Shown: piece by piece, positions 6,278-24,185 of the stretch
How the letters are laid out: each line of letters starts with the position of its first letter
Numbering within the stretch: position 1 is the stretch's first letter
Source: a virus
DNA length: 36,197 nucleotides
Reading direction: 5' to 3' (one strand)
IMG/VR virus record: IMGVR_UViG_3300043469_001328
Location: 1 to 36,197 of that record
The notes under the pieces: model-generated
What the model was told of the DNA's origin: nothing
What the model saw: only the letters and a program-made list of their open reading frames with translations
Databases searched by the model: none
Program-made: the position numbers and the translations under genes

Positions 6278-7951
6278 TTATGACTCTTTACGTAACTCTC
6301 CTCCGTAATGTTCGAATCTATCGTGTTCAGTTGGTGTTAAAAGTAATAAACCTGATGATAATTCTCCTTTTTTGGCCAATTGATACATATGACTCATCCA
6401 TGTTTGTTCAAATGGGTGTGCCCATGTTGTGTCCAAAAACATTTTTTTATTTCCCGGTCTACTAACAATTTGAGGCCAGTTACAATAATAAACTTCACCC
6501 GAGCCATATGGTAAACCTTTGTGAGATAAAATTGATGAGAATTTAGTTTTTGGAGCATTAGGGTCTAATCCAAGATGAGGTAATGTTGGTTTTTCAGGCC
6601 AAAATTCTTCTCTAACTGATTGAGGTACGTTATACCAAGACCATTGAGTTCCGTTATCCCCATAAAACTCTGAATAATTAAGTTTTAAGAAGTCAAAATT
6701 TTCTTTCTGAATAATCTCTAATGACTTGGTGTATAAATTTGGAACATATCTATTAAAACCATTTCGGCAAACAGAACCTTCATTAGGGAAGAAAAACATA
6801 TCATCTTCAAAAAATAAATAATAATCTAAATCGGTTGTTTCAAAATGTTCGGCAATCCATTGTCTACCACCACAAATCCCAAGATTTTCTTTTTTTATGT
6901 GTTCAAACCCATGTTCTTCACATAGTTTCAAGTATTCCTCAGTCGTTGATAAATCAGTAGAATTATCCAACAAATACTTTTTAGTTTTTATTAAATAATC
7001 ATTATCATATGATTCAAATGATTTGATTAAAGTTCTAAATTGATTTGGACTATTAAATGTTAACACATAAAGACCAACTTTATTTGTATCTAAATTATTT
7101 ACCACACTAACTTTAGATTCATTTTTCGGAATTAATGTATCGTTTTTTAAATCCTCAAAAAATTTACCAACCAATCCATTAGAATCTATCTCAAAATAAT
7201 TAATCAAGTCTGAATGTTTATATGACATTATACTAAAGATTGATTCTTCAGTTCCCATATAACCTTCTCCAAGAGTTGATTTTAATAACCCATAATAAAT
7301 CGAATTAATATCCGCAATACTGTCTTTAGGTCCACCAAAAAATCCTCCTCGGGAAACTTTAGTAACTTTAGAACCTGCAATAGAATTTAACTTATCATAA
7401 TTAAATCCATGTATTTCTGTTTCCGCATCATAAGGAAAACTAATAAACGAAAATTTTGATATGTATTTCGATAACTTATCAAGAACATTATCGTGAGTAA
7501 AATACCCCGGATGAACAGTGTTTGTTAAACCACCGTCAATCCAAAACATATATTTAGAATCAAACTTATCAAATATTTTGGCGTCGTGTAAAAGAAACAC
7601 TTTTGACATAACCAATGGATTATAGTTTTCTAATTTTGCTTGAGTTGATTGTTCTAACCAACCCACTTGATTATACCAATTAGGGTTATTTCGTATGCCT
7701 TGGATAAGTGGGTTAAATTCTGAGTTAGAGAACCACTCTAAAGGTCTTTCAATAAATTGGGTGTTTGATTCATTCCTTTTTGTAAAAACAAATTCTCGAA
7801 GACTTTCATCCCCGAAAATTATCATATTTTCTTGAACATCTAATAGTTGTTCAAATTTATCCAAATAATGTTGGTAAGACCTTGACCACCCTTCGGTCAA
7901 ATCACTACGACCAATATCCCAAATACCGGTAACTAATGTAATATTACTCAT
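6278..7951 (-). CDS. two-domain glycosyltransferase: HtrL/YibB-like plus GT2-like
   Basis: A 557-residue soluble protein with two GT-A-type halves. Residues 1-270 resemble the HtrL/YibB family: the FWIDGGLTNT motif (137-145) stands in for the usual DxD site, and RGGFFGGPKD (201-210) and GTEESIFS (233-240) follow. From about residue 291 a second domain opens with KVGLYVLTFNSPNQFRTLI, the classic GT2 start, with an acidic EDD motif at 382-384 (YLFFEDDMFFF). The presumed role is transfer of two sugars, or transfer plus acceptor recognition, in a surface or virion glycan. Donor and acceptor cannot be read from the sequence. It overlaps the upstream gene by 8 bases (ATGAGTAA), which implies translational coupling. 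It is the last gene of the glycan cluster in transcription order. Confidence 0.82.
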   Translation of the reverse strand: MSNITLVTGIWDIGRSDLTEGWSRSYQHYLDKFEQLLDVQENMIIFGDESLREFVFTKRNESNTQFIERPLEWFSNSEFNPLIQGIRNNPNWYNQVGWLEQSTQAKLENYNPLVMSKVFLLHDAKIFDKFDSKYMFWIDGGLTNTVHPGYFTHDNVLDKLSKYISKFSFISFPYDAETEIHGFNYDKLNSIAGSKVTKVSRGGFFGGPKDSIADINSIYYGLLKSTLGEGYMGTEESIFSIMSYKHSDLINYFEIDSNGLVGKFFEDLKNDTLIPKNESKVSVVNNLDTNKVGLYVLTFNSPNQFRTLIKSFESYDNDYLIKTKKYLLDNSTDLSTTEEYLKLCEEHGFEHIKKENLGICGGRQWIAEHFETTDLDYYLFFEDDMFFFPNEGSVCRNGFNRYVPNLYTKSLEIIQKENFDFLKLNYSEFYGDNGTQWSWYNVPQSVREEFWPEKPTLPHLGLDPNAPKTKFSSILSHKGLPYGSGEVYYCNWPQIVSRPGNKKMFLDTTWAHPFEQTWMSHMYQLAKKGELSSGLLLLTPTEHDRFEHYGGELRKES

Positions 7952-8819
7952 TTATATTATTTAATTCTGTTAACATTTTATAAAAACTTTTGTTTTTTTG
8001 AAAAAATTCTTCACTTCCTTCTTTAAAATTATCGTGGTGCCACCAAATATCGAAGTTTAAAGTCTTAAACCATTCTTTATGATTTTGGTACATTAATGAC
8101 ATATAATGTTCCTCATAAAACAATCTTTTTTGTTCCGGTAAAATCAATTTAACATAGTCATCAAATTGTTTAACTACCTTATCCCACAACTCTGTTTTAC
8201 CCCCAAAAAATCCGCCAATGACATGAACACTGTTGTCGTATGTTGTATAGTATTTAGGGTCCACAGTACCTTCCCAATAATTTCTTGAATTTTCTTTTGC
8301 CACCATTACAAACTTATTGTCGGAATATTCAATTAAATTATTTAAAAAATTATCATTAAATAATGATGATTCATAGTAAAATCTATGACCTTGTCCTGAC
8401 AAGTATTTATTTGGTATTAAGCCTGTATGAGATAAACCAGCATCGAACCAAAAATAATAATCATAACTTTTATCCTCATTCTTAAACCAAGAAAATTTAG
8501 AGTATTGAATTTCGTAACATCTATCAGATGTTTTAATACCTTCAACATCTTTAACACTATTAATCAACTCTTGATATTCATTTTGTGATAAATCAAATAA
8601 AACAAATTTTAATCTATCTTCAGAAATTTCATGATTTTTATAAAAAAACTCTTTTAAGTCTTCTAATTCTCTTTCAGAGGTGTAACAGATAAAATCTGCT
8701 TGGGTCATTTTTAATAAAGACAATAAACTAAAACGATAGTGGTCTTTTCTCCCTGGCCTTCCACCAAGCTCAGAACCGTAAAGGTCTGAATAAATACTTG
8801 TTATAATCTTAACTCTCAT
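7944..8819 (-). CDS. HtrL/YibB-like glycosyltransferase
   Basis: A 291-residue protein related in layout to the N-terminal half of its downstream neighbour. It has an opening beta strand (MRVKIITSIYSDLYG), a central YFWFDAGLSHTG motif equivalent to WIDGG, then VIGGFFGGKTELWD and YEEHYMSLMY. These are hallmarks of the HtrL/YibB family, found in bacterial LPS clusters and assigned a GT-A-like fold. The sugar donor is unknown. It overlaps the genes on both sides, by 11 bases upstream and 8 bases downstream, so it belongs to a tightly coupled operon. Tandem copies of this family suggest duplication within the cluster. Confidence 0.8.
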   Translation of the reverse strand: MRVKIITSIYSDLYGSELGGRPGRKDHYRFSLLSLLKMTQADFICYTSERELEDLKEFFYKNHEISEDRLKFVLFDLSQNEYQELINSVKDVEGIKTSDRCYEIQYSKFSWFKNEDKSYDYYFWFDAGLSHTGLIPNKYLSGQGHRFYYESSLFNDNFLNNLIEYSDNKFVMVAKENSRNYWEGTVDPKYYTTYDNSVHVIGGFFGGKTELWDKVVKQFDDYVKLILPEQKRLFYEEHYMSLMYQNHKEWFKTLNFDIWWHHDNFKEGSEEFFQKNKSFYKMLTELNNINE

Positions 8820-9537
8820 TGTTGTTTCTTAATTCTAAACATTTATCATAATCTAAATATTTTCCATCTAATTTGTCCGGAAAATAAACATTCCAATTAT
8901 ACGTCATAACATAATGATTTGAATCAAATGTTTTGTTAATATCCGAATAATCTCTTTTTTGAACAACTAACGGTAATTTAGCAGAGAAGGATTTCATATT
9001 TGGGTAAACCGCTCTATCTAAAAACTCATCAATTGGAACTTGTTTATGACTATTTTCAATAATCACATTGGTATCCCATTGAACAATATATTCACACGCC
9101 TTTCTTGTTAAAATAAACCCTGAAGTACCAAAAATACCTCTGTGTTTGTCCGGGTCCTTTGGTGGTAATATTGTTAAATCAACTAACTCTTCGGAAAACT
9201 TACTAAGTGGTCTGTGAATTGATGGTGCAAAATGGAAAAAACTCCAATCATTATTACTCAACTCTTCTTCTATTAAAGGGATTAATTTTTTTGCGTACGG
9301 CATAAAAAAGATATCGTCTTCAAATACCATGGCATAATCATAACCTCTTTCTAAAATAATTTTAGCAACTTCTTGGTGAGAATAGGCACATCCTTCATAA
9401 CTGTTTGTATCAACCGCATTGAATCTTTCAAACGTCCAACCCATATAGTCAAACTCTTTTGTAACCGCCTCTAATCTATCAGGTCGTCTTTCAAGATTAA
9501 TTACAAATTTAGGTATTTCATTAAAATTAATTTTCAT
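8809..9537 (-). CDS. glycosyltransferase family 25 (LPS-type)
   Basis: A 242-residue protein with the GT25 signature: KFVINLERRPDRLEAV at the N-terminus (10-25), RFNAVD, GCAYSHQEVAKII (49-61) and the acidic metal/donor site MVFEDDIFF (E73-D75). The family transfers galactose, glucose or related sugars onto LPS; eukaryotic relatives glycosylate hydroxylysine of collagen. The length matches bacterial members. It overlaps both neighbours by 11 bases (ATGAGAGTTAA downstream and ATGAAAATTAA upstream). Its acceptor is unknown; its place between other transferases points to assembly of one oligosaccharide. Confidence 0.9.
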   Translation of the reverse strand: MKINFNEIPKFVINLERRPDRLEAVTKEFDYMGWTFERFNAVDTNSYEGCAYSHQEVAKIILERGYDYAMVFEDDIFFMPYAKKLIPLIEEELSNNDWSFFHFAPSIHRPLSKFSEELVDLTILPPKDPDKHRGIFGTSGFILTRKACEYIVQWDTNVIIENSHKQVPIDEFLDRAVYPNMKSFSAKLPLVVQKRDYSDINKTFDSNHYVMTYNWNVYFPDKLDGKYLDYDKCLELRNNNES

Positions 9538-10294
9538 ATATCAAATTTGTTTTATTATCATATCCTCTTCTGTGCGCAAAAATTACTGAATTTAATTCGA
9601 TTGCCTTTTGAAGGTTTCTATTAACATCGGTCCAATACCCAAAAATATCAATATCTTGGGTTGGACAATTATATCTTGATGATAGGATTGATAATACACT
9701 TTGGTCGTGTCTATGATTATCTTCAAAACCATCAACACAACCTTCAATTTGAGAATAATCCCAACCTTCGGTGATAATATGACTGTATTTACCATCACTT
9801 TTAAACCCAACTAATCCTGACCAAAGTTGATTATCCATTAGTTCTTCTTCAGTTGCATTCATTACCTCAACACATCTCTTGTGTGTATAATTTTTATTTA
9901 AGTGAATGTCACCAACTAAAAAGATATCTTCAGATTCAATAACATTAAAAATTGGTTCCAAACTTCTTAAGGCACAAGCACCGGCATCTAACCATAAAAC
10001 ATTTTTAGATAAACTCATAGAATGAAACAAAGTATACATTTTTAAAAAATGACATTTTGTTTTTATTGACGATATCCCTTCATAGATTTGAAAATCTTTT
10101 ACGATATCAACAATCATTATTTTTTTTAACGATTTCAATCGATTAATTTCTGTTTGGTCTAAACCAAAATCATAAACCACAATCATATCAACTAACTCAA
10201 AACTATCTTTATGGATACTATTAATTAGAGTTAGTAATGATTCAAAATAAGGACTATTCGCCCCTGTTATAACAATATTATTATACATTTTCAT
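9527..10294 (-). CDS. putative GT-A glycosyltransferase with WLDAG motif
   Basis: A 255-residue protein. It opens with a Rossmann-like strand, continues through an IVVYDFGLD segment and has a VLWLDAGACALRSLEPI motif (D103). That matches the WIDGG/WFDAG sites of the two HtrL-like neighbours and the GT8-like 'LWLDAD' layout. Near the C-terminus HRHDQSVLSIL resembles the 'xxDQ' donor-binding segment of GT8-type enzymes. The class is therefore likely, while donor and acceptor are open. ATG at 10294 or the in-frame ATG at 10288 could be the start; the latter would overlap the upstream stop by exactly 8 bases, the spacing seen elsewhere in the cluster. Confidence 0.72.
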   Translation of the reverse strand: MKMYNNIVITGANSPYFESLLTLINSIHKDSFELVDMIVVYDFGLDQTEINRLKSLKKIMIVDIVKDFQIYEGISSIKTKCHFLKMYTLFHSMSLSKNVLWLDAGACALRSLEPIFNVIESEDIFLVGDIHLNKNYTHKRCVEVMNATEEELMDNQLWSGLVGFKSDGKYSHIITEGWDYSQIEGCVDGFEDNHRHDQSVLSILSSRYNCPTQDIDIFGYWTDVNRNLQKAIELNSVIFAHRRGYDNKTNLIYEN

Positions 10295-11096
10295 TTAAAT
10301 AAGTTTGGATTATTTTTTCAGGGAACATATACTCTTTTGCTAATTCAAAGTTTTTCCTAACTGATTCTATTTTAGACATATAGTATTCACTATTTAATTT
10401 TTCTAAAATAGACGGTAATTCTTCATCACCTTCAAAATATATGATACCATTTTCATCAAAATAATTAGAAGTGTCTCGTGACCCAACATATACAGGAATT
10501 GTTCCGGTTAAGAAACAATCCAAAATCTTTTCAGTAAAGTACCCACTCTCAACACAATTTTCAATCACAATTGAAAACATATAATCTTTTAACGCATCAA
10601 TTTTAAATTCAATTTCTTTTTCACAACCTGACCCATAAAAATCAACTCTACCATCATCTTTTAATCTGTCATAAACTCTAAACCTCATTCTATGGTATGC
10701 GTTCCAATTTTTCCAAGAAAAAAGAGAACTAACCACTTTAGATTTTTCATGGATATTAATATCCTCTTCTCTCATCCAAGTTCCACCATGTGGGATATAC
10801 ACAGCATTTTCTGCTTGTGGTATTACATTTTTATGATGAGTGAAAATATATTTAAAATTTTCTTTATTCTTGATGATGTTAACATAGTTTTCACCATTAA
10901 TAATTGAAGGTTCAATTAACCAAGCACAATTTATTTTTGTTTCATCTATTGGTTGAGTAAAACACATACGGTCTACATAAACACCAATATCATATGTATC
11001 AGGTTCTCGTTCCCATCCGGTTTTAGGGTCAATGTATCTGGACAAACCAGGTTGTCCAACTAAGTTTTCGTCAATTAGTTTTGTTGTTTTAGACAT
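10281..11096 (-). CDS. GT10-like fucosyltransferase
   Basis: A 271-residue protein with the C-terminal donor-binding motif of alpha-1,3/4-fucosyltransferases (family GT10). FSIVIENC (174-181) and GYFTEKILDCFLTG (185-198) are followed by TIPVYVGS (199-206). The N-terminal half contains YIFTHHKNVIP and YIPHGGTW, typical of bacterial GT10 acceptor domains. The family uses GDP-L-fucose. The enzymes that make that donor, GDP-mannose 4,6-dehydratase and GDP-fucose synthase, are encoded at 33871-35749 in the same window, which strengthens the call. Some GT10 enzymes may accept other GDP-sugars. It lies 13 bases after the DegT aminotransferase gene and overlaps the next gene. Confidence 0.88.
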   Translation of the reverse strand: MSKTTKLIDENLVGQPGLSRYIDPKTGWEREPDTYDIGVYVDRMCFTQPIDETKINCAWLIEPSIINGENYVNIIKNKENFKYIFTHHKNVIPQAENAVYIPHGGTWMREEDINIHEKSKVVSSLFSWKNWNAYHRMRFRVYDRLKDDGRVDFYGSGCEKEIEFKIDALKDYMFSIVIENCVESGYFTEKILDCFLTGTIPVYVGSRDTSNYFDENGIIYFEGDEELPSILEKLNSEYYMSKIESVRKNFELAKEYMFPEKIIQTYLNENV

Positions 11097-11109
11097 TTTA
11101 ATTTTATTA

Positions 11110-12219
11110 TTAATTTATTGTATTTTTATCTTTAAGGTAGTTTATAATTTTTCCGGCAATAAAATCAACCTGACTATCGGTTAATTGAGGATATGATGGT
11201 AATATAAGACACTGTTCACTTAACATAACAGAGTTTGTATCCTCGTTTGGAATATGGGAAATATAATCGTGTTTTTTAATTTCGTAAAACATAGGTCTTG
11301 TATCAATACCTACATGAAACAAATAGAGTTCTAAATCTTTTTTCTGATTTAAAGTAAATTCGTTAAATCTTAACCCAAACATCCATTCAGAGTGTTCCGT
11401 TTCCGAATCTATTTTTTGAAATGAAATTCCTTCCACACCTTCAAAAATGGATTTATAACGATTAAATATTTTATGTTTTCTTTCTTTAATCTCATCTAAC
11501 GATTCTAACTGACCATACAAAATTGCCGCTTGAATATTAGTCATTCTATAATTATAACCTAAAACATCGTGAATGAATTTTTCATTTGATTGTCCCTGAG
11601 ATTTAACTTTATTAATGTATTCAAATACATCATCGTCATTTGTTATAAATGCACCACCCTCACCTGAAGTTATAGTTTTATTACCGAAGAAAGATATCGA
11701 TGAGGCAAATGATTCGGTACCTGTATATTTATCCCCATATTTACCCAAAAACCCTTCACAATTATCTTCTAAAATAACGGTGTCAGGAAATTCAATTTTT
11801 AATTTAGGTACGTTTACAATATTACCAATATTATGAACCACTAATATTGCGGTGTTTTCGTCAACCAAAGATTTTAATTTAGATGTGTCAAAATTCCAAG
11901 TTTCCAAATCAGAATCAATCGGTATCAATTCATAATTTTTATCAAATAAAAAAGAATTCCACGCAGCTACATATACATTGTTTGGTACAATAATTTTATT
12001 AATGTGAGGGTACTTATATTTTAAGGCAATTGCCAATAAATGTGTTGCAGTTGTACCATTATTAGTCAATATTAATCGTTTACACCCAAGAATTTCTTTT
12101 AATTTGTTTTTCGCTAAATCTAAGTATTCACCTTGAGATGAAACCCATCCGGAGTCAATTGCTTTATGTGCGTATTTTAAATTTTTTTGATTAAAATACG
12201 GTTGATAAATTGGTATCAT
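11110..12219 (-). CDS. DegT/StrS-family PLP aminotransferase, probable GDP-perosamine synthase type
   Basis: A 369-residue sugar aminotransferase. Residues seen: MIPIYQPYF and SGWVSSQGEY at the N-terminus, NNGTTATH (53-60) for the phosphate site, EDNCEG (151-156) for the PLP pyridine, and SFFGNKTITSGEGGAF with the Schiff-base lysine K181. YNYRMTNIQAAI follows. These phrases match perosamine synthases (RfbE/Per), which aminate GDP-4-keto-6-deoxymannose using glutamate. That substrate is the product of the dehydratase encoded at 34754-35749. Other DegT enzymes act on UDP- or TDP-keto sugars, so the specificity is inference. It overlaps the upstream FkbM gene by 4 bases (ATGA). Confidence 0.92.
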   Translation of the reverse strand: MIPIYQPYFNQKNLKYAHKAIDSGWVSSQGEYLDLAKNKLKEILGCKRLILTNNGTTATHLLAIALKYKYPHINKIIVPNNVYVAAWNSFLFDKNYELIPIDSDLETWNFDTSKLKSLVDENTAILVVHNIGNIVNVPKLKIEFPDTVILEDNCEGFLGKYGDKYTGTESFASSISFFGNKTITSGEGGAFITNDDDVFEYINKVKSQGQSNEKFIHDVLGYNYRMTNIQAAILYGQLESLDEIKERKHKIFNRYKSIFEGVEGISFQKIDSETEHSEWMFGLRFNEFTLNQKKDLELYLFHVGIDTRPMFYEIKKHDYISHIPNEDTNSVMLSEQCLILPSYPQLTDSQVDFIAGKIINYLKDKNTIN

Positions 12220-12857
12220 ATTTTTATAAAGTAAGCGTTATTATCTTTAGTTAAATCAAATTTGTAATTTAATTCATCTAAAAATGATTTTATGTTGTCT
12301 AACCCAACATGAGGATATTCAACACACAAAATTTGAGGTAAAAATTTTGAGTTTTTCATCCCTTCTAAAACTTCTATTTCGTAACCTTCAACATCTAAGA
12401 CAAATAAATCGATAGTTTGGTCATGAAAGTTTTCATTCATTAATTTATCTATAATATTATCATATCTCGTTGAAATAACATTATACTCTTCAAAATGACA
12501 TCCTTCATGGTTTAATAAATCTTCGTGTGTCATTTTGTGTTTAAATGAACCATTACCAAACTTAGTCCCATGATATGGATGTACGGCGTGTTTGAATTTT
12601 AAAGTTGTTTCTTCACTACCTAAACCCAAATTAAAATTGTGTGATTTAGTTCTATTTGATTTTAACATCTCAAAAATTGGTGGAGATGCTTCAATATTGA
12701 TACAAGTCCACCCTAAATTTTCTTCAAAAAATAAAGTTGACGACTCCATTACACCATCAAATGCTCCACATTCAATACTAATCCCTTTTTCTTTATTTTG
12801 AAAATACCTCTCAAAAATAAACTTATCCTGTTCAGATTGTCCGTAAAATTTATACAT
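12216..12857 (-). CDS. FkbM-family methyltransferase
   Basis: A SAM-dependent O-methyltransferase of the FkbM class, often found capping or decorating glycans. Motif I is ISIECGAFDG and the acidic end of the ribose strand is CINIEAS. The family's DLFVLDVEGYEIEVLEGM segment follows. An ATG at 12941 would give 28 extra residues, but it would overlap the upstream gene by 92 bases. The ATG at 12857 opens MYKFYGQSEQDKF, the usual beginning of this domain, and overlaps the upstream stop by 8 bases (ATGTATAA), the same spacing as elsewhere in the cluster. I therefore prefer 12857. The methyl acceptor is unknown. Confidence 0.87.
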   Translation of the reverse strand: MYKFYGQSEQDKFIFERYFQNKEKGISIECGAFDGVMESSTLFFEENLGWTCINIEASPPIFEMLKSNRTKSHNFNLGLGSEETTLKFKHAVHPYHGTKFGNGSFKHKMTHEDLLNHEGCHFEEYNVISTRYDNIIDKLMNENFHDQTIDLFVLDVEGYEIEVLEGMKNSKFLPQILCVEYPHVGLDNIKSFLDELNYKFDLTKDNNAYFIKI

Positions 12858-13671: not shown

Positions 13672-13692
13672 TTTAATAAAAAAAAAAATCAA

Positions 13693-14001
13693 TTAATATG
13701 TTTTATGTGCTCTCTGTAAAAATTTACCGTTATCTAAATCCTCACCATTTAATTTTGCTTCAATTATTTCAATAATTTTTGAGTCAACCTCATTTATTAA
13801 TTGATTTCTTTGAACATTTAAGTCGCATGCCTTTTTTAATGTCTCCCAAAGTAAATTAGCCCCACTTTCGTCGTTAAAGTATTTTTCCTTATACTCTTCA
13901 AAAGTCATTCTTCTTATATCGTATAATAACTCCTGATTATCCCACATTTTCATGTCAACTGTTACTAATTTATCAATAACGTTTCCTAATGTATCTGCCA
14001 T
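13693..14001 (-). CDS. small helical glycan-cluster protein, function unknown
   Basis: A 102-residue, all-helical, charged protein beginning MADTLGNVIDKLVTVDMKMW and ending GKFLQRAHKTY. It has no transmembrane segment or signal peptide. The recurrent phrases (KMW-x-NQELLYDIRRM, KKACDLNVQRNQLI, NGEDLDNGKF) look strongly conserved. As I recall, similar small proteins accompany glycosyltransferases in bacterial and phage surface-sugar clusters, but I cannot name the family. The fold suggests a four-helix bundle that could bind a partner transferase; that is speculation. It lies 5 bases after the GNAT gene. Confidence 0.75.
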   Translation of the reverse strand: MADTLGNVIDKLVTVDMKMWDNQELLYDIRRMTFEEYKEKYFNDESGANLLWETLKKACDLNVQRNQLINEVDSKIIEIIEAKLNGEDLDNGKFLQRAHKTY

Positions 14002-16529: not shown

Positions 16530-19001
16530 TTATGGTCTAGTTGGTGTTGGTGTTGGTGTTGGTGTTTCTCCACCAGCAGTTGGTGTTGGTGTTGGTGTTT
16601 CTCCACCAGCAGTTGGTGTTGGTGTTGGTGTTTCTCCTCCCGGTGTTGATGTTACTGTTGCGGTTACTGTTGGAGTAATACCTGTAACTTCAGGAGTATT
16701 ACTTGGTGTTACACTAGGTGTTGGTGTTGGTGTCACATTAAAAGTTGAACCTGTCGTTTCACCTGTAAAATCATATTGTGTCGACCCTGTCACATCAAAT
16801 GTAACTCCAGTGAATGAACTTACTTGTGTTAAATCATTATAATCGTAGTCTACAAATACTTGAGTATAACCACTTGTTTGTCCTGATAAAATTTCTACAG
16901 AACTATTAATTACTAATGGTGGTCCTGTAATAGTCCCTAATACATTAGTGAAATTAATAGTAATATCATCAGTTACTACTTGATTAGCAACTGCCTGATA
17001 TCCTGCACCTACTGAACCTTCAAAATAAAATCCCTCTAATTGAATTATAATAGGTGTTGCACAACCTAATGGGTTTACTGATGTAACTTCACCTACACCT
17101 CCGGTTACCTGATATGTTGCAGTTCCATTAGAATAATATCCATTAGAAGCTGTTGTTGATAACAATGTGTTAGTGTACAATATCTCACCAAGATTTGGTC
17201 CTATACCCGCAGCAATCGCTCCATAAAGAGTTATTGGTGAATTATCAAAATTATCACAAGCCGTTGCCGGAACAGTTGCATCATAACCTAATGTATAAGT
17301 GTAGTAACCAATTGTTTGAGTCGGTGTTTGAGTTAAGGTTGGTGTTTGTGTTTGAGTCTGAGTTAATGTTGGTGTATTAGTTGGGGTTTGAGTTTGAGTT
17401 TGAGTTACAGTTTGAGTTGGTGTTAATGTAACACAAATACTAAATCCTCCAACAATAGAACCGTCAGATGATAACTGAACTATATTTTGACTATTATTAT
17501 AATAACCTGTCATATCAATTGTAGTTGGACCTGCTAATACATTATAGAATATGGTATTTTCATCAAAATTAACTTTATCACCATAAATCGTAATTGTTGA
17601 ATTGTATTGACCACAAGCTTCGTCATATGTTGAACCCGGATAAACCGTAAATGCAAACCTAGTTTGAGTTGGTGTTGGTGTTGGGGTTGTTGATGCGGTG
17701 TTTGTCGGTGTTACTGACGCTGTATTTGTTGGTGTTGACGTATTTGTTGGTGTTGGGGTTGAAGTCTCCGTATTAGTTGGTGTTTGAGTTAAAGTTTGAG
17801 TCGGTGTTTGAGTAGTTGTTGGTGTGTTAGTTGGTGTTTGAGTTAAAGTTTGTGTTGGTGTTAAAGTGATACAATTTGAAAACCCTCCGCTTTCAACACC
17901 ATTATTTAATTGTACTACAATTTGTGAGTAGTTATAATAACCTGTTAATCCTGTTGTGTCCGGACCTACGATATTATTGTAAAATACTGTGTTATTATCA
18001 AATAATGAAGAGTCACCATAAATAACTACTGTTGAATTATATTGACCACACGCAGCATCATAAGTAGACCCCGGATAAACTGTAAATGGGAATCTATTCG
18101 CTGTTGGTGTATTAGTTGGTGTTGTAGTAGGTGTTGGAGTATTTGATGCAGTAACTGACGGTGTTGGACTTTGAGTCGTCGTATTTGTCGGTGTTTGCGT
18201 TAAAGTCGGTGTTGGCGTTAAGGTAATTACCCCAACACAACCATTCGGGTCAGATGAAGTAATTTCACCTAATCCACCTGTTATTAAGAACCATGAAATT
18301 CCATTAGAATAATAACCATTACTAGCTGGTGTAGATAACAATGTGTCATCATATAAAAACTCACCTACATTAGGACCTATACCACCAGAAACAGCACCAT
18401 AGTAATTTGATGGTGAATTTGAGTCATTACAAGATTCTTGGATTGTTGCCCCGTAACCTAACGAGTAACTATAATATGAGATAGTTTGTGTTGGTGATGC
18501 AGTATTTGTCGGTGTATTAGTTGGCGATGCTGTATTTGTAGGAGTTTGTGTTGGTGTCTCCGTATTTGTTGGTGTTGGAGTTGGAGTTGATGTCTCCGTA
18601 TTTGTAGGAGTTGGAGTACTAGTTGATGTCACCGTACTTGTTGGTGTTTGAGTAGGAGTTTCCGTATTAGTAGGAGTTGGAGTATTAGTTGAAGTATTTG
18701 TTGGTGTCTGAGTGTTTGTCGGAGTTTGAGTTTGAGTTGGAGTTTGCGTAGGGGTTGTTGACTGAGTAGGTGTTTGAGTTGGCGTAGCACTTACTGCAGG
18801 AAACACTCCTAAGTTAACTAAAACTACGGAACTTCTGAATGATGGAGCAATTGAATATGTATTATCAATCAACCAAATATTTTTTGTTTGATTTGGATTC
18901 AATTCAACCTGATATTCCCATAGAGAGTCATCACATCTTCTATAGTTAAAGTTCACTAAAGTAGAACCAGTGTTTGTTAAAGTATATTTACTACATGCCA
19001 T
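16530..19001 (-). CDS. Thr/Pro-rich modular virion protein with duplicated domains (A-B-B-A)
   Basis: An 823-residue protein built from small globular modules joined by Thr/Pro linkers. Residues 1-70 are an N-terminal cap ([10 protein letters not shown]..., Cys3) shared in outline with the gene at 21547. Linker 72-173 is almost only T, P, N, S, Q. Module A1 (174-260) and A2 (564-652) are copies, with [12 protein letters not shown] versus [13 protein letters not shown] and ASNGYYSNG in both. Module B1 (302-380) and B2 (448-526) are copies ([18 protein letters not shown]). A beta-domain follows at 653-756, and the end is three [11 protein letters not shown]-like repeats. There is no signal peptide, so it is probably a virion surface fibre or decoration rather than a secreted protein. 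The linkers resemble mucins and could be O-glycosylated (inference). Confidence 0.85.
16533..16640 (-). repeat. 33-bp tandem repeats encoding [11 protein letters not shown]
   Basis: Three consecutive units encode [22 protein letters not shown] and [14 protein letters not shown]. Two 33-bp copies are nearly identical at DNA level (GTTGGTGTT runs plus TCTCCACCAGCA), which makes the C-terminus prone to copy-number change by slippage. Confidence 0.9.
17046..17312 (-). repeat. module A2, copy of module A1
   Basis: Encodes residues 564-652 of the 823-residue protein. It shares [36 protein letters not shown] and GGVGEVTS with module A1 at 18222-18482, from which it is separated by two B modules. 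Confidence 0.88.
17424..17660 (-). repeat. module B2, copy of module B1
   Basis: Encodes residues 448-526. [20 protein letters not shown] and [12 protein letters not shown] match module B1 at 17862-18098 closely, indicating recent tandem duplication together with a Thr/Pro linker. Confidence 0.9.
17862..18098 (-). repeat. module B1
   Basis: Encodes residues 302-380 of the 823-residue protein: [35 protein letters not shown] and GGFSNCITL. Two cysteines are conserved with B2. A more distant relative appears as residues 121-205 of the protein at 19073-21508 (RYLFTNICHDESD...). Confidence 0.88.
18222..18482 (-). repeat. module A1
   Basis: Encodes residues 174-260, a beta-rich module with two cysteines, following the longest Thr/Pro linker. 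Paired with A2 at 17046-17312. Confidence 0.88.
18483..18788 (-). repeat. Thr/Pro low-complexity linker (longest of the set)
   Basis: Encodes residues 72-173, composed almost entirely of TPT, TNT, TQT and TET triplets. The DNA on the + strand is a degenerate run of GTTGGTGTT-like 9-mers. Other linkers of the same type lie at about 16533-16733, 17313-17423, 17661-17861, 18099-18221 and repeatedly within 19073-21508. Confidence 0.9.
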
Positions 19002-19018
19002 GTTATTTCTGTTTAACT

Positions 19019-19025
19019 ATAAATA
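19019..19025 (-). promoter_or_regulatory. RTATTTAT element before the 823-residue gene
   Basis: The - strand reads TATAGTATTTATAGTTAAACAG, with TATTTAT 17 bases before the ATG at 19001. It overlaps a 17-base palindrome (AATACTAT-A-ATAGTATT, 19022-19038). The palindrome may be an operator or part of the promoter. Confidence 0.4.
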
Positions 19026-19072
19026 CTATAATAGTATTGATTTTATGTTTTTATGCTAAAATTTATTTTTTA

Positions 19073-21508
19073 TTAATTACTGATGGTGACTTCTACAATA
19101 TCTGTGGATAGTAAAGCAACACCACCTAGTGTTAGTGATAGAGACGGATTTAGTAAAGTACCTGTTGAAATTTCTACATTATTAAGTTTTACAATATAAC
19201 TTACTGTACCACCATTTACATCAACAGCAGGATTAGTAGATGTTGTTCCATGAGTCCCATAAAGTGTAGTACCTATATTAACCGGGAAACCAGTAGAATA
19301 ACCACTACCACTTACAACACTAAGTAAACTAACAAAACCACTATCATCAGTAATATAGTCAAATTTTGCGGTTCCACTTGTTGTGTTATTAATTAATGTA
19401 ATATTAATACCTGGTGTATGTGTAGGTGTTATAGATGGTGTATTAGTTTGAGTTTGGGTATTTGTAACCGTAGGTGTTGGTGTATTAGTTGGTGTCTGTG
19501 TCTGAGTTGTTGTTGGTGTAGGAGTTATTGCGGAAATACAATCGGCACAACTAGAATAGTAAGTTATTGGATTACTTCCATCTGTAGGTGTTGTATTAGT
19601 TTTATTAACAATTGTATAACATTCAGTTGCGGTCGCTCCTGTGAACTCTAAATAGAATGTGTCACCAGGGAAAAGACCTGGACTCAACAAATTAGCGACA
19701 ATAACATTAGAACTACTACATCCTGAGATGGTGTAAGTAGTAATTGTACTTAAATCAGTTGGTGTTGGAGTCGGAGTTTTTGTGTTAGTTGGAGTTTGAG
19801 TTGGTGTCTGTGTATTAGTTGTTGTTGGTGTAGGAGTTGGTACAATTTCAAGAGTAAATTTATAAAAAGTTGAACCACTACCCCAAGTCCAATCATAACT
19901 TCCCGGAGTTAATCCTAAACTTGAAATGGTTTTTCCATTGTAAATTGTTGAACCAGTCATAAAACTACCTGAAGTATATGTAGAAGGAAGTAGTATAAAA
20001 CTATTACCCCCCACTCCAAAAGGACTTCCTGTCGAAGTATCCCCAAATATTTGTGGACCAGAACCAAAACTAACTGGACTTGTAAATGTAATACCTGAAA
20101 TTGGGTCGTATCTATTCAATTCTGATACATTAGAATCAGAACCAATTAAAATTTGACGACTACCAGGATACACATAACTATCGATGGCTTGAAGGTTTAC
20201 GAATTGAAATAAACCTGTATAATCAATAGCCCCTGAACCTGACATCACAACATTAGGTCCATCTTCAAACACTCTAACATAATAATTAGGTGCAGGAATT
20301 GTTGGTGTCGGAGTTGGTGTTCCCGTGTTAGTCGGAGTATTAGTTGGTGTTGTTGTTGGTGTCTGTGTCTGAGTTGTTGTCGGTGTAGGAGTTGGTACGT
20401 CACTAATTGTTACTACTACTATATCGGTTGATAATAAAGGTTCAAATCCTAATGTTAAATACACCCAATCCCCACTAGGTAAGGTTGCGGTATAAAATTG
20501 TTGGAAGCTACCGTTAAAGTCCACTCTAACAACAAAACTTAACCCATTAGAACCACCTATAACGGCCTTAGGACCATTCGAGGTTCCGGTTTGATAACCA
20601 TAAGTTGTACTACCTCCGGATACAGGTAATGAACCTATTTGGTTTTCTAAAATAATTGAACCTGAATCATCTGTAAGTCCAGAGATAGTCACACCATTTG
20701 TTGTATTATTAATTAATGTAATATTAATACCTGATGTTGTTGTTGGTGTTGGTGTGTTAGTCGGAGTTCCCGTGTTAGTCGGAGTTTGATTTGGTGTCCC
20801 CGTATTAGTTGGTGTTACGGTTGGAGTTGATGTGTTTGTCGGAGTTGGCGTTAGTGTTCCTGTATTTGTTGGTGTTGGGGTTGGAGTAACATTACATGGT
20901 CCAACAAGGGTTAGAGTTGCACCACTTGTACATCCCGGTCCACATTCAGTACTTGCAACATAACTAAAACCACTAATTGAATACCATCCTTCAGGGTTTC
21001 CTGTATTAGGACCTGAGGCATCTGACCATATTAATGTACTTGCACTAAACACAGGGTTATTAGTCCATACTGTTGCAGTTCCAAGACAATCACAAGCTCC
21101 TGTCACATCCGATTCATCATGACAAATATTAGTGAAAAGATATCTGGTTATTTCTGTAGGTGTTGGAGTTGGAGTTGGTGTACTAGTTGGTGTACTCGTA
21201 TTAGTTAGAGTATTTGTTGGCGTATTAGTTGGCGTACTCGTATTCGTCGGTGTACTAGTTGGTGTATTAGTTGGAGTTGAAGTACTAGTCACTGTTGGCG
21301 TAGGTGTCGGAGCTAAAACATCTAAACTATAAGTGTACCCATATGTTGGCACATAACAATTATATGTTCCATAAACATATTCTGAAATATAGTTAAATGG
21401 GAATACTTGAGACCCAAGACTTATTGTTCCACCTGATTGAGGTAGAAACGTTACATTAGTGGTTAAACCACTTAAATTATCACTAAAAATTCTTATTCCG
21501 ATTGCCAT
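19073..21508 (-). CDS. Thr/Pro-rich modular virion protein with PEP-CTERM-like and duplicated domains
   Basis: An 811-residue protein. Residues 1-66 form an N-terminal beta cap. A linker at 67-119 leads to a cysteine-bearing B-like module (121-205). After a linker comes module C1 (260-369, GINITLINNTTNG...LLSTDIVVVTISD). A 408-556 module has LGLTPGSYDWTWGSGS and a GSGAIDYTGL stretch, as in exported bacterial proteins with PEP-CTERM tails. A cysteine-rich module spans 586-660 (ISGCSSS, SSCADC), and module C2 (700-811), a copy of C1, ends the protein. There is no signal peptide or membrane anchor. It is most likely a tail or capsid fibre made with its two Thr/Pro-rich neighbours. The modules suggest ligand (glycan or surface) binding, but none has an assigned function here. 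Confidence 0.85.
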   Translation of the reverse strand: MAIGIRIFSDNLSGLTTNVTFLPQSGGTISLGSQVFPFNYISEYVYGTYNCYVPTYGYTYSLDVLAPTPTPTVTSTSTPTNTPTSTPTNTSTPTNTPTNTLTNTSTPTSTPTPTPTPTEITRYLFTNICHDESDVTGACDCLGTATVWTNNPVFSASTLIWSDASGPNTGNPEGWYSISGFSYVASTECGPGCTSGATLTLVGPCNVTPTPTPTNTGTLTPTPTNTSTPTVTPTNTGTPNQTPTNTGTPTNTPTPTTTSGINITLINNTTNGVTISGLTDDSGSIILENQIGSLPVSGGSTTYGYQTGTSNGPKAVIGGSNGLSFVVRVDFNGSFQQFYTATLPSGDWVYLTLGFEPLLSTDIVVVTISDVPTPTPTTTQTQTPTTTPTNTPTNTGTPTPTPTIPAPNYYVRVFEDGPNVVMSGSGAIDYTGLFQFVNLQAIDSYVYPGSRQILIGSDSNVSELNRYDPISGITFTSPVSFGSGPQIFGDTSTGSPFGVGGNSFILLPSTYTSGSFMTGSTIYNGKTISSLGLTPGSYDWTWGSGSTFYKFTLEIVPTPTPTTTNTQTPTQTPTNTKTPTPTPTDLSTITTYTISGCSSSNVIVANLLSPGLFPGDTFYLEFTGATATECYTIVNKTNTTPTDGSNPITYYSSCADCISAITPTPTTTQTQTPTNTPTPTVTNTQTQTNTPSITPTHTPGINITLINNTTSGTAKFDYITDDSGFVSLLSVVSGSGYSTGFPVNIGTTLYGTHGTTSTNPAVDVNGGTVSYIVKLNNVEISTGTLLNPSLSLTLGGVALLSTDIVEVTISN
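19076..19411 (-). repeat. module C2, copy of C1
   Basis: Encodes residues 700-811. Both copies begin GINITLINNTT and end LLSTDIV-V-VTIS; the middle parts have diverged. Being the terminal domain in this copy and internal in C1, it was probably moved by duplication together with a linker. Confidence 0.88.
19841..20287 (-). other. domain resembling exported PEP-CTERM-type bacterial proteins
   Basis: Encodes residues 408-556. VVMSGSGAIDYTGL, GGNSFILLPSTYTSGSFMTG and SLGLTPGSYDWTWGSGSTF follow the order of a domain I recognise from secreted bacterial proteins carrying a PEP-CTERM sorting tail. Here the sorting tail is missing and the domain is embedded between Thr/Pro linkers. The homology is from pattern memory. 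Confidence 0.6.
20402..20731 (-). repeat. module C1
   Basis: Encodes residues 260-369 (GINITLINNTTNGVTISG...STDIVVVTISD), paired with C2 at 19076-19411. It is flanked on both sides by Thr/Pro linkers. Confidence 0.88.
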
Positions 21509-21512
21509 ATTA

Positions 21513-21519
21513 ATAAATA
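21513..21519 (-). promoter_or_regulatory. RTATTTAT element before the 811-residue gene
   Basis: The - strand reads AAAGTATTTATTAATATGGCA, with TATTTAT exactly 4 bases before the ATG at 21508. Spacing is identical to the elements at 1554-1560 and 6266-6272. Confidence 0.4.
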
Positions 21520-21546
21520 CTTTACTTTTCTTATTTTATTTTTTTT

Positions 21547-22110
21547 TTAACAAACACCTTCATTTATAATTAATGTTCCGGATATTTGTATAAATTTTGC
21601 ACCATCCGATATTGTAAAATTAGTATTAACCGGAGGTATTGTTAATAATCTATTACCATAAACATTATCACCTATTTCTAATTGAGTGAAAGGTTTTGTC
21701 GAATATACCGTAACATTTGATGGAGTTGCAAATAAATCTACTGATTCACACACATTTTGATACCAACCTCCTGTCCATAAATTTTGTACATATATTGGTT
21801 GTGGTGTATTAGATGGTGTTGCAGTATTTGTTGGTGTTGGAGTCTGAGTAACCGGAGTTGGTGTTAAACTAACTGTAGGAGTTACCGATGGAGTTATTGA
21901 AGGTGTCGGTGTATTTGACGGACACAATCCAATATTATTTATTGTTAACGGAGCACCATAATCTTCTTGAGTTAAATCATCAGCACAAACAAAATCAGTT
22001 TGTAAAGGATTTACTTGTGAAACACTTACAATCCCTGTACAACCTGTCCATTTATAATACCCTTCTTGAATATTATTATAATTGGTTATTTGATATTGAT
22101 AACAACTCAT
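21547..22110 (-). CDS. short Thr/Pro-rich modular virion protein
   Basis: A 187-residue protein: an N-terminal cap (MSCYQYQITNYNNIQEGYYK, Cys3), a Thr/Pro/Ser linker at residues about 65-105, and a C-terminal beta module of about 80 residues (WTGGWYQNVCESVDLFATPS...ISGTLIINEGVC). The cap shares the M-x-C-x-x-Y-x-x-T-N pattern and later Cys with the cap of the 823-residue protein, suggesting that both dock on the same virion partner. It starts 2 bases after the stop of the LamG-like gene, so it is read from the same message. It looks like a minimal version of the two larger fibres: one cap, one linker, one module. Confidence 0.8.
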   Translation of the reverse strand: MSCYQYQITNYNNIQEGYYKWTGCTGIVSVSQVNPLQTDFVCADDLTQEDYGAPLTINNIGLCPSNTPTPSITPSVTPTVSLTPTPVTQTPTPTNTATPSNTPQPIYVQNLWTGGWYQNVCESVDLFATPSNVTVYSTKPFTQLEIGDNVYGNRLLTIPPVNTNFTISDGAKFIQISGTLIINEGVC

Positions 22111-22112
22111 TA

Positions 22113-24185
22113 TTATACAGGTGTTGGGGTTGGAGTTGGGTTTATTGATTCATAGTATAAATCATTACTTGGTATGGAAATATAAAATAAATCATTATCC
22201 GGAATAAAAATGTAAGATAAATTATTATCAGGAATAAAGCTATATGTTAAATCATTATCCGGTATAAACTCATATGTTAAATTACCCTCAGGTATTTCAA
22301 TATAATATAAATCATTTACAGGAATAACAATTCTACAATCCTTACAATCAGGATTTAATAAGTTGTATTTTAACTTTAATAAATTAAAGTTATGTTTTAT
22401 TTGAGATGCATTTAATGGTTCGGTGTACATTCTAAACGCACTTATATCACCAATCATACTACCCCCAAAATATTCTTCTAACTTAATATGAGTTGTAAGA
22501 CCTGAGTAAATTGTATTATCTAAATCGTGTGTTGTTAAACATTCAGGGTCTTGTTGATAAACGATATCATCAATTGTCGGAGGGCATCCACCCGAAAAAG
22601 TTAAGTTATCATGAAGACCTTGAGTTCCTCCACCTAACGAAATATTATAACCAACCCCAATTTGTTTTTCTTTTGGAGTATCTAATAGACGTGGAATAAT
22701 TTCTTCAAAGTTTTCAGCAACCATGAACAATTTACCATTCACATAGAACTTCATAGTTCCTAATCTATATTTTTCTTCGGCAGTCCAATTATCGTTGAAT
22801 GTTACAATTTCAGTTGTTGCAGGGTCGTATTTTTCCTCGTGAGTAATTGGTGGTTCGATTAAACTAATACTATTGTTCGCAGTTGTTGCAGTATAAATTT
22901 CTTTAACAATTAATCCAAGACCTCCTTTATTATTTAAATCACAGGCATCAAACCATTCATTTCTTTGAAACACCGCATCAATCTGAACCCAATGTTCAAC
23001 ATTTGAGTAAGTTGTTCCACTACAATCATCAAAGATTCCTCTTGTTGAACACCATTCGGTAACTGAAGTTCCTGTAACATAGGTTACTCCGGTTAAACAA
23101 GTTCCTGTTGTTTCACATCCTCCCGTGATTCGATATGTTTTTACACATAATTTTGGACTTCCTGTATCACCACTTAATCTTAAAGATAACGCATTTGAAA
23201 CTCCATCATATAATGGGTCAGTTTCAGGATATTGGGCACTTACCTCACAAGAACATGGGCAACCACAACTACAATTATATGATGTACCACCTGATTGTTG
23301 ATAAACTTTTAAACAATCATGAGGGTTACTACCTAATAAATTACAAGCACAAGTATCCATACAGGTTAAACCTGAAGTAACTCTTGTATAACCTGAATCT
23401 TGTTTTGGTGAACCATCAGGGTAGTGATAGAATTTGTTTTCCGCTCTCGCACCCATATAAAAGAATGTTCCTTTGTTATTTGGGTATCGAGAATTTAAAC
23501 CAACAGATGTATCACCGGTCCATCTATATCTTAACATAAATTCGGCACTCCAACCTAAATTAGGTCTTTCGGGAAAAATTTGGTAATCATAACCAGCAAC
23601 CTTGTAAAATCCTTGGAAGAATCCACCATCTAATCTTGCAACATATCCAATATCTCCACCGGCATTGTTGTACGATAAATCATACGAATATGAATTATCA
23701 TTCCATAATCTATTCTGTGATGTTGTGAACCCAGTAATTGGGTGCATTTTCATCCTTCTATCGTATTTGTATCTACTAAATTTGTCTGATTGTGTAGTAT
23801 AAAGTCCGGTATTAATTTGAATTGTTTCTCCGGACATATGTTTTACCAAACCATTGTCAATTCCCGTTAAACCAACATCACATAAGTCAGTTATTATAGG
23901 ACAAAAATTTGGGTCAGTATCAGTAGGGTTCCAATAATTTTCTGACACAATAGTGTCATAATCAAATGTACACGCACTTGTCGTACATAAAGTTGTTCCT
24001 GAACTATTAAAATTGAATTTAAACGGCATTCTATTACCATCCAATTCACCAATTAATAAAGGTGAAAAAACAACCTCTTGGTCGTAATCTTTTTCGTCTG
24101 AAGCAAGACAAATGTCCGTGATTTCATTCGCCGGTTTTAGACCCCATCGTCTAAAATTATACTGATTAATGTTTTGATATGCCAT
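22113..24185 (-). CDS. cysteine-rich LamG-like virion protein with C-terminal decapeptide repeats
   Basis: About 690 residues. The N-terminus (MAYQNINQYNFRRWGLKP) is typical of phage structural proteins. The middle has a LamG/concanavalin-like sandwich, seen from LGTMKFYVNGKLFMVAENF and GGSMIGDISAFRMYTEPLNA, preceded by a cluster of some ten cysteines in CACNLLG...CSCGCPCSC. The last 72 residues are six tandem 10-residue repeats of the form x-x-I-P-D-N-D-L-x-Y, then NPTPTPTPV. The open frame begins with TTG at 24191; the ATG at 24185 is the better start. It heads the - strand structural operon and lies downstream of the divergent promoter region. The probable role is a tail or capsid surface protein that binds carbohydrate; this is inference from the LamG fold. 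Confidence 0.85.
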   Translation of the reverse strand: MAYQNINQYNFRRWGLKPANEITDICLASDEKDYDQEVVFSPLLIGELDGNRMPFKFNFNSSGTTLCTTSACTFDYDTIVSENYWNPTDTDPNFCPIITDLCDVGLTGIDNGLVKHMSGETIQINTGLYTTQSDKFSRYKYDRRMKMHPITGFTTSQNRLWNDNSYSYDLSYNNAGGDIGYVARLDGGFFQGFYKVAGYDYQIFPERPNLGWSAEFMLRYRWTGDTSVGLNSRYPNNKGTFFYMGARAENKFYHYPDGSPKQDSGYTRVTSGLTCMDTCACNLLGSNPHDCLKVYQQSGGTSYNCSCGCPCSCEVSAQYPETDPLYDGVSNALSLRLSGDTGSPKLCVKTYRITGGCETTGTCLTGVTYVTGTSVTEWCSTRGIFDDCSGTTYSNVEHWVQIDAVFQRNEWFDACDLNNKGGLGLIVKEIYTATTANNSISLIEPPITHEEKYDPATTEIVTFNDNWTAEEKYRLGTMKFYVNGKLFMVAENFEEIIPRLLDTPKEKQIGVGYNISLGGGTQGLHDNLTFSGGCPPTIDDIVYQQDPECLTTHDLDNTIYSGLTTHIKLEEYFGGSMIGDISAFRMYTEPLNASQIKHNFNLLKLKYNLLNPDCKDCRIVIPVNDLYYIEIPEGNLTYEFIPDNDLTYSFIPDNNLSYIFIPDNDLFYISIPSNDLYYESINPTPTPTPV
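22152..22331 (-). repeat. six 30-bp tandem repeats encoding IPDNDLxYxF
   Basis: Six in-phase units encode IVIPVNDLYY, IEIPEGNLTY, EFIPDNDLTY, SFIPDNNLSY, IFIPDNDLFY and ISIPSNDLYY. Spacing is exactly 10 residues. The regular I-P-x-N-x-L-x-Y pattern suggests a short beta-roll or solenoid stalk. Confidence 0.92.

Follow-up and report, generated by a model that had tools for sequence, protein, structure and literature searches.

Gene content of the locus

The 36,197-base IMG/VR virus record IMGVR_UViG_3300043469_001328, hereafter the window, i.e. the whole stretch of DNA analysed, carries a gene resembling glycosyltransferase family 60 (GT60) directly downstream of three genes for threonine/proline-rich (TP-rich, i.e. 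Thr/Pro-dense) proteins. All four lie in a minus-strand block that runs from 24191 to 5884 and is transcribed in the order of a gene for a 692-aa protein, the three TP-rich genes, the GT60-like gene and then twelve more genes. An initial annotation, made from the sequence alone, had read this arrangement as a mucin-type O-glycosylation system with which the phage decorates its own fibres; that observation was confirmed, while the interpretation is partly supported.

The product of the GT60-like gene (15143-16408, minus strand), i.e. the proposed polypeptide O-N-acetylhexosamine (HexNAc) transferase and initiator of the system, matches the Pfam family PF11397 ‘Glycosyltransferase (GlcNAc)’ with an E value of 2.1e-65 (221.9 bits against a cut-off of 21), the best stretch comprising positions 94-350 of 352, as well as the PHROGs family phrog_24687 ‘glycosyltransferase’ (E 3e-160), in line with the family first named for it. 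PF11397 presumably corresponds to CAZy family GT60.

Among the 40 open reading frames (ORFs) of at least 80 aa that were scored in the window, TP-dense stretches were found in just three, all others scoring 0 residues. These are the modular TP-rich protein 1 (16530-19001; 823 aa, 344 TP-dense residues), the modular TP-rich protein 2 (19073-21508; 811 aa, 265 TP-dense residues) and TP-rich protein 3 (21547-22110; 187 aa, 42 TP-dense residues), the last consisting of two globular parts joined by one TP linker. As initially described, all three genes lie on the same, minus strand as the GT60-like gene and directly upstream of it in transcription, and across 16530-22110 they have the tandem arrays and long Thr/Pro-dense stretches of mucin-like acceptors; they are the proposed acceptors here. 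Their only PHROGs matches were to two families of unknown function, phrog_15511 and phrog_38031.

For comparison we took the best 80 of 493 viral relatives of the GT60-like gene (82-100 % identity, on contigs of up to 321 kb). A TP-rich ORF ends at most 150 bases upstream of the GT60-like gene in 69 of these 80 close relatives, and the gap is 354-1,148 bases in L009-L011, L019, L032, L036, L050 and L056; L066 and L067 are truncated by the contig end, and the called GT60 ORF of L068 begins too early for scoring. By tblastn, in the close-relative loci with at least 9 kb upstream, TP-rich proteins 1, 2 and 3 were conserved in 40/40, 37/40 and 33/40, respectively. The 692-aa protein (22113-24191, minus strand), a further proposed acceptor, was likewise matched in 40/40. 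In its homologues (window and L006-L083) around 620-650 N-terminal residues are conserved, mostly at 75-94 % identity, and the length of the C-terminal TP tail varies greatly, with a few residues for the window and several hundred for some close relatives. No fold was obtained for this protein (predicted local distance difference test, pLDDT, 26.5).

Enzyme class of the GT60-like protein

A sequence search for a solved structure homologous to the GT60-like enzyme found none. AlphaFold2, supplied with a 65-sequence alignment minus two deposited phage sequences, returned a model with a pLDDT of 95.0 and a predicted template modelling score of 0.91. The first Foldseek matches in the PDB were the N-acetylgalactosamine (GalNAc) transferases GalNAc-T4 (E 5e-10) and GalNAc-T2 (E 6e-10), and in VIA-align the top 29 entries were all polypeptide GalNAc-transferases (Z 19.1-22.4; 256-311 aligned residues at 3.3-5.8 Å), followed at Z 16.4 by other GT-A enzymes. 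The VIA-align ranges stop between residues 300 and 414 of 421, with few listed rows extending past residue 362. The polypeptide GalNAc-transferases of family GT27 are the starters of mucin-type O-glycans and have a C-terminal lectin domain; the metazoan and Toxoplasma members are the nearest solved folds (Z 19-22), at 10-17 % sequence identity.

Residues D92, H94, E205 and H229 are invariant in the 65-sequence alignment and compatible with a metal-dependent GT-A centre, the DxH motif being the metal site of GT27. The model fold and the conserved residues both point to a GT-A polypeptide HexNAc-transferase. Given the family match, the predicted fold and the invariant residues together, the assignment to this enzyme class is therefore well supported, and the proposal of a mucin-type initiator is supported by the family match and by the predicted fold lying nearest to the polypeptide GalNAc-transferases.

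Recurrence of the gene pair in other phages

A lack of co-occurrence of GT60-like and TP-rich genes in relatives had been named at the outset as a refutation; co-occurrence was found both there and in other lineages, although many GT60 loci have no TP-rich neighbour. For the viral counts we dropped L162 and L164, which duplicate the contigs of L097 and L086, and GT60 ORFs below 300 aa, and required flanks of at least 3 kb per side (4 kb in an earlier test on representatives); expected counts were obtained by letting the other genes of each locus serve as the anchor. A TP-rich gene was the immediate neighbour of GT60 in 85 of 191 usable viral loci, compared with 27.3 expected, a set which still includes other repeated contigs and near-identical phages. 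Clustering lowered the counts considerably, i.e. to 36/109 (14.6 expected) at 90 % identity, 14/50 (5.0 expected; P 2.5e-5) at 70 % and 7/23 (2.7 expected; P 0.005) at 60 %. The excess is larger when set against the whole-contig rate, the four large contigs having 30 TP ORFs in 1,649 genes. A third set (L480-L559), comprising the best 80 loci from a different query and picked by GT60 similarity alone, gave 16/65 (8.1 expected; P 0.0017), and 7/28 at 70 % clusters (3.2 expected; P 0.015).

The pairing also returns with other neighbours and gene orders, and a single conserved synteny block as its sole cause was thus rejected. On a quick tree of 114 GT60 representatives, TP adjacency (scored in 106, of which 23 were TP-adjacent) changes at least 10 times, as does the state phage or bacterium, and the TP-rich neighbours of GT60 form several groups by their globular parts. 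TP-rich protein 3 of the window falls in this way together with TP-rich proteins encoded beside distant GT60 genes, e.g. those of L105 and L110. In the group of L100 (around 40 % identity) the TP-rich ORF of many loci lies downstream, one gene downstream or upstream, amid tail genes. In L122, GT60 and the gene for a tape-measure protein (E 7e-21) belong to a single gene run, the latter in fifth position after the former, and in L110 the gene before GT60 has PHROGs tail-fibre and collagen-like tail matches, with a virion-structural match three genes after.

At an E value of at most 1e-5, relatives of GT60 were found in three deposited phages, i.e. XacN1, CM1 and RAS14. The enzymes of the XacN1 group are 43-50 % identical to that of the window and are neighboured by a carbamoyltransferase (XacN1 annotation) and a YibB-type gene. 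Tandem pairs of GT60 genes occur in single phage loci (L519, L549, L556 and L558), and in L531 a second GT60 gene lies just upstream of the first.

A structural partner, the crAss-like muzzle protein

Two loci were scanned with Pfam, and in each a TP-rich gene behind GT60, adjacent to it in L498 and two genes on in L483, showed the C-terminal domain of the crAss muzzle protein (E 1e-15 and 4e-18, respectively). Among the 20 of 87 records listed, muzzle homologues from deposited phages of Flavobacterium and Cellulophaga carry the annotation ‘structural protein’. The initial claim that the acceptors are virion proteins has support in relatives, i.e. from the muzzles of L483 and L498 and, by tail context, from L122 and L110; it does not extend to the TP-rich proteins of the window, for which no match to known virion proteins was found.

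A search with only the globular domain yielded 68 muzzle loci, of which 22 had both GT60 and a TP linker, three GT60 alone, six a TP linker alone and 37 neither. GT60 thus accompanied 22/28 muzzles with a TP linker compared with 3/40 without (Fisher P 1.4e-9, uncorrected for descent). The three loci with GT60 that were scored as lacking a TP linker (L598, L606 and L624) contain 20-residue windows of 60-75 % Thr/Pro, below the coverage rule. Four of the six TP muzzle loci without GT60 were inspected by eye: L588, L593 and L600 have transferase- or sugar-dehydratase-like genes directly upstream, and L578 has no transferase-like gene upstream in the stretch listed. Carbamoyltransferase-like and hydroxylase-like ORFs were seen by eye upstream of the muzzles of L572 and L587, which have long linkers and no GT60.

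Bacterial homologues

The initial view of a system peculiar to phages is too narrow, because bacteria also have the pairing. The bacterial set consisted of the best 80 of 198 GT60 loci, with GT60 ORFs below 280 aa dropped from the counts and flanks of at least 4 kb per side required for the adjacency test; since ORFs were called mechanically, some neighbours in GC-rich bacterial loci are false reading frames. Type VI secretion system (T6SS) genes were present, with TssF in 15/80 loci and the T6SS protein VgrG in 11/80, the matches including TssF (E 7e-226), VgrG domains (E 2e-90) and IcmF. All these VgrG proteins (L194, L197, L198, L201, L203-L206, L213, L214 and L222) have long low-complexity repeat ends. 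In 10 of the 11 the end is a tail of Ser/Thr-Pro tandem repeats, with units that differ between proteins; the eleventh (L197) misses the tail metric and ends in a Glu/Pro/Ala/Ser/Asp repeat.

For comparison we took 30 VgrG proteins, i.e. the best single-genome matches in the family of G608, the genome of L213. Ser/Thr-Pro tails were present in 3/30, exactly those with PF11397 5-7 kb away, although two of the three were already in the GT60-locus set (G608 being L213, and the tail of G646 equalling that of L194). The 27 unlinked proteins, all read to their C termini and seven of them refetched whole, had no such tail (0/27); one of them comes from a GT60-bearing genome, but from elsewhere in that genome. 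In the 7.9 Mb genome G608, (TP)6 arrays occur only in the VgrG beside GT60. Such arrays were found in 3/6 genomes, i.e. G608, G609 (two places, one being the VgrG beside GT60) and G610 (one place).

Clusters resembling extracellular contractile injection systems (eCIS), recognized by sheath, tube, gp25, baseplate-like or eCIS-core matches, accompany GT60 in L209, L211, L217, L220, L231 and L236. TP-rich stretches lie in the sheath-like ORF of L217 and in a large ORF of L209 and L211; no TP-rich ORF was found in the stretch examined of L220, L231 and L236.

In L172, L177, L195 and L216, GT60 is paired with a TP-rich protein whose start looks, by eye, like a twin-arginine translocation (Tat) signal, and in L177 and L216 this protein sits between two PF11397 genes. 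In L172 (6352-8424; a Saprospiraceae metagenome-assembled genome), GT60 and the gene for the Tat-like protein are neighboured by a sulfotransferase-type gene, which might add a further decoration to the glycan.

Another recurrent neighbour is a 2-oxoglutarate (2OG)-Fe(II) oxygenase-type gene, which adjoins GT60 in 10/80 bacterial loci (L226, L227, L232, L233, L235, L237, L240, L241, L243 and L245), with a weaker match at L219. The three tested belong to PF13640 and the others were assigned by similarity. These loci come from Aquimarina, Spirosoma, Nocardioides and others, and possibly represent a counterpart of the PhyA/Gnt1 pathway that acts on Skp1. Those of Aquimarina and Spirosoma also encode a small protein that contains a Gly/Pro-rich linker.

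PF11397 was sparse in the genomes sampled from the phyla of G013 (11/395, strong only in the centre genome itself) and G015 (1/198, again the centre genome).

The transferase cluster and fucose supply

Downstream of the TP-rich genes the initial annotation had counted at least eight transferase-like genes. Seven exceed the Pfam cut-offs, i.e. those at 6278 (HtrL_YibB), 8809 (GT25), 10281 (GT10), 11110 (DegT), 12216 (FkbM), 14007 (GNAT) and 15143 (PF11397), and the count of eight holds only if the GT8-like gene is included, because its match is below cut-off. The cluster genes at 7944, 12850, 13693 and 14439 gave nothing over the Pfam cut-offs. Conservation was scored in 74 of the 80 close-relative loci, i.e. 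those with at least 9 kb downstream, and all genes of the core and cassette described next are on the minus strand.

The conserved core comprises the HtrL_YibB-type two-part protein (6278-7951; PF09612 E 2e-18), a proposed elongating transferase, and a 291-aa protein (7944-8819; no Pfam match), also a proposed transferase, found in 62/74 close relatives and 5/11 of the XacN1 group; GT25 (8809-9537; PF01755 E 5e-16) is semi-conserved (50/74). The YibB-type gene is present in 73/74 close relatives, 11/11 of the XacN1 group, 44/65 loci of L480-L559 and 17/80 bacterial GT60 loci, yet in only 2/57 of the L100 group. Its homologue in L172 has an additional Glycos_transf_2 match. The polymerase gene and a small gene at 5884 are each found in 73/74 close relatives as well.

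Between this core and the GT60-like gene lies a variable cassette. It consists of the GT8-like gene (9527-10294; PF01501 E 0.016, weak and below cut-off; 2/74), a GT10 fucosyltransferase that is mostly variable (10281-11096; PF00852 E 2e-10; 9/74), a DegT/DnrJ aminotransferase (11110-12219; PF01041 E 2.7e-65; 1/74), an FkbM methyltransferase (12216-12941; PF05050 E 2.5e-16; 1/74), a GNAT acetyltransferase (14007-14438; PF00583 E 1e-5; 1/74) and a 233-aa protein without a Pfam match (14439-15140; 1/74). The nearest NCBIfam model of the aminotransferase is the LegC family TIGR04181 (E 9e-61, below cut-off). DegT, FkbM, GNAT and three other genes were each found in 1/74, the single relative being one at 100 % identity. 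The cluster thus combines a conserved core with a cassette nearly private to the phage of the window, as expected for a glycan with a varying cap.

The fucose component proposed at the outset is supported by the gene content, since besides GT10 the window encodes, on its plus strand, a GDP-L-fucose synthase (33871-34773; NF047922 E 1e-71, 241.8 bits, below the equivalog cut-off of 500) and a GDP-mannose 4,6-dehydratase (34754-35749; TIGR01472 E 3e-122, 408 bits against a cut-off of 415, and above the cut-off of PF16363), both assigned to donor supply. An amino sugar, also part of the glycan first proposed, is possible, its basis being the one DegT aminotransferase.

Proposed mechanism and alternatives

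Taken together, the product of the GT60-like gene is probably a polypeptide O-HexNAc-transferase acting as primer of the Thr-rich stalks of injection particles, with a glycan elongated by the core and the variable cassette. The enzyme encoded at 15143-16408 would work in the cytoplasm as a metal-dependent polypeptide O-glycosyltransferase with a GT-A fold, belonging to the PF11397/GT60 type, and would use UDP-N-acetylglucosamine (UDP-GlcNAc) or another UDP-HexNAc and place the first sugar on Thr of the TP linkers. Its acceptors would be the stalk proteins encoded alongside, primed in the cytoplasm before particle assembly. The conserved core (YibB-type protein, the product of the gene at 7944 and GT25) would then elongate the glycan and the variable cassette (GT8, GT10, aminotransferase, FkbM and GNAT) would add the cap, the phage itself supplying GDP-fucose. 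The surface of the particle would thereby bear rigid, extended stalks coated with sugar, with a cap that differs between strains. Computed support was obtained for the enzyme class, the gene partnership, its recurrence, the fucose genes, the variability of the cassette and the structural muzzle partner; the donor sugar, Thr as the acceptor residue, the place of the window's TP-rich proteins in the virion, the order of the sugars and the purpose are what we infer. It is tempting to speculate that GT60 enzymes form a general mucin-type system of phages and bacteria, exchanged repeatedly, with the Ser/Thr-Pro stalks of injection machines (fibres and muzzles of tailed phages, T6SS VgrG spikes and eCIS parts) and Tat-like exported proteins as clients and with variable cassettes leading to differing coats, for which we consider the chances about even.

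Several results weigh against these proposals, beginning with the absence of a match to virion proteins noted above for the window's TP-rich proteins. No TP-rich immediate neighbour was present in 106 of the 191 usable viral loci or in any of the nine XacN1-group representatives (0/9), and within 10 kb the XacN1 group had an opposite-strand TP-rich ORF in 8/16 and none in 8/16, the latter half being the adverse one; L097, with a GT60 at 70 % identity, likewise has no TP-rich ORF within 10 kb. TP ORFs also lie far from GT60, those nearest to it on the four large contigs being 706, 83, 51 and 10,224 bases away. Among the matches listed, many of them short loci, GT60 was found in only 5/120 TP-pattern loci. 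The notion that TP-rich genes need GT60 was rejected on this count, together with the TP ORFs elsewhere in the same genomes. Statistically, the third set alone was not significant at 60 % clusters (4/14, 2.2 expected; P 0.13), nor were the 50 % clusters (viral 1/4, bacterial 1/19), which are too few to tell. The bacterial excess at 70 % clusters is modest for adjacency within one gene (5/35, 1.2 expected; P 0.003) and not significant within two genes (5/35, 3.0 expected; P 0.13). For the muzzles, the test corrected for descent (64 of the 68 loci, matches above 200 aa) leaves 4-5 independent pairs and is not significant, with about three of these pairs going in the expected direction, and long linkers arose only around twice. 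Finally, L572, L587, L599, L602 and L610 have long muzzles with sub-threshold Pro/Thr linkers and no GT60 in the stretch examined.

A different target for the cluster would be the host surface (lipopolysaccharide, LPS, or capsule) or the phage DNA, a role suggested for glycosyltransferase clusters in other jumbo phages, in which case the TP adjacency would merely reflect a common variable island. The Pfam name of GT25 points to LPS biosynthesis, cyanophage-type transferase clusters have been read as surface-polysaccharide modification against superinfection in the part consulted of Iyer et al. (PMC7824862), and the role of the moraphage core transferases is left between DNA, host and virion in the consulted parts of PMC12619734. 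We nevertheless regard a host or DNA target as unlikely, since the predicted fold is nearest to polypeptide transferases and the TP pairing recurs in varied gene orders (upstream, downstream or with one gene in between) and with a range of proteins, as well as in T6SS and with exported-looking TP-rich proteins of bacteria. The enzyme might instead act in the same linkers on hydroxyproline formed by a prolyl hydroxylase, like Gnt1 on Skp1: the GT60 family includes the Skp1 enzyme (PMC6939170, consulted in part), the linkers are Pro-rich as well as Thr-rich, the bacterial oxygenase neighbours described above fit such a pathway, and contig G002 has one oxygenase-like match at another place (L275). 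However, neither the window cluster (Pfam) nor the phage loci L002-L170 (tblastn) contained a 2OG oxygenase, so the pairing of a Skp1-type prolyl 4-hydroxylase with GT60 was not seen in the window, and the VgrG tails of GT60 loci retain Ser/Thr whatever the repeat unit, which makes hydroxyproline an improbable acceptor.

Priming of Thr in the TP linkers also has to be set against an action of GT60 on other fibre parts, i.e. collagen-like Gly-Thr repeats or globular domains, with the TP linkers as bare spacers. The gene directly before GT60 in L110 and L105 has, by eye, collagen-like Gly-Ser-Thr repeats, consistent with the PHROGs matches of that in L110, and L097 has large neighbours lacking TP stretches. 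Yet it is the Ser/Thr-Pro linkers that phages, VgrG tails and Tat-like proteins have in common, and bare linkers thus seem improbable too. As for the bacterial loci, the GT60 of T6SS and eCIS could be a delivered effector that glycosylates target-cell proteins, which would render these cases uninformative for the phage; glycosyltransferase effectors of contractile systems are indeed known, e.g. Afp18. Many bacterial GT60 ORFs are, however, 400-480 aa long as called, near the phage enzyme (some are longer, e.g. 804 aa in L216), and Ser/Thr-Pro VgrG tails accompany them, so that we hold an effector role to be very unlikely.

Relation to known systems and significance

The mucins of Trypanosoma cruzi are Thr/Pro-rich. 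The parts consulted of PMC9472816 describe TcOGNT1, a GT60 enzyme (UDP-GlcNAc:polypeptide alpha-GlcNAc-transferase) that makes GlcNAc-alpha-O-Thr in mucin-like surface proteins; it resembles the phage gene product by family but is a eukaryotic Golgi enzyme, and the phage gene is linked to genes for TP-rich proteins. The Gnt1 enzymes of Dictyostelium and Toxoplasma are protein-modifying GT60 members as well, TgGnt1 acting on the Skp1 hydroxyproline made by PhyA (consulted parts of PMC6939170), in contrast to the phage GT60 gene, beside which no oxygenase was found.

Mycobacteriophage virion proteins are glycosylated, which is said to shield them (Freeman et al. 2023, as quoted in PMC12619734); these glycans are on the C termini of capsid and tail-tube subunits, and the quoting passage mentions neither GT60 nor TP stalks. 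Moraphages, aquatic jumbo phages of up to 307 kb with a DNA polymerase B and four core glycosyltransferase orthogroups, resemble the window, whose relatives reach 321 kb, by description only, and the parts consulted of PMC12619734 name no virion acceptor or GT60 initiator. In the open-licence literature, mostly covered by title and opening of the abstract, we found no account of GT60 initiation in phages or bacterial injection machines, nothing on phage glycosyltransferase family 60, mucin-like phage proteins or O-linked virion glycans, and, by title and opening of the abstract, nothing on a GT60/TP pairing in work on glycosylation of T6SS VgrG or contractile injection systems. Virion glycosylation (mycobacteriophages) and GT60 initiation (protists) are known, and it is their union in phages and injection machines that appears new by this search.

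If the proposal is true, surface stalks of phages and bacteria are subject to mucin-type initiation through a polypeptide transferase, a process familiar mainly from eukaryotes. A function would be assigned to a gene of several hundred viral contigs, the persistence of TP-rich linkers in phage stalk proteins would have a reason, and VgrG spikes and crAss-like muzzles would be predicted as possible glycoproteins. It would also provide small enzymes for glycoprotein production in E. coli.

Other genes of the window

Just past the transferase cluster lies a family B DNA polymerase gene, and a head-tail adaptor-type gene lies at 1565 (E 2e-9). The plus strand carries, in addition to the two fucose genes, more transferases and a nucleotide-sugar dehydrogenase-type gene. 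A 510-aa phage protein encoded at 9-1541 has an Fe/Mn superoxide dismutase domain at around residues 37-231, followed by a long C-terminal extension.

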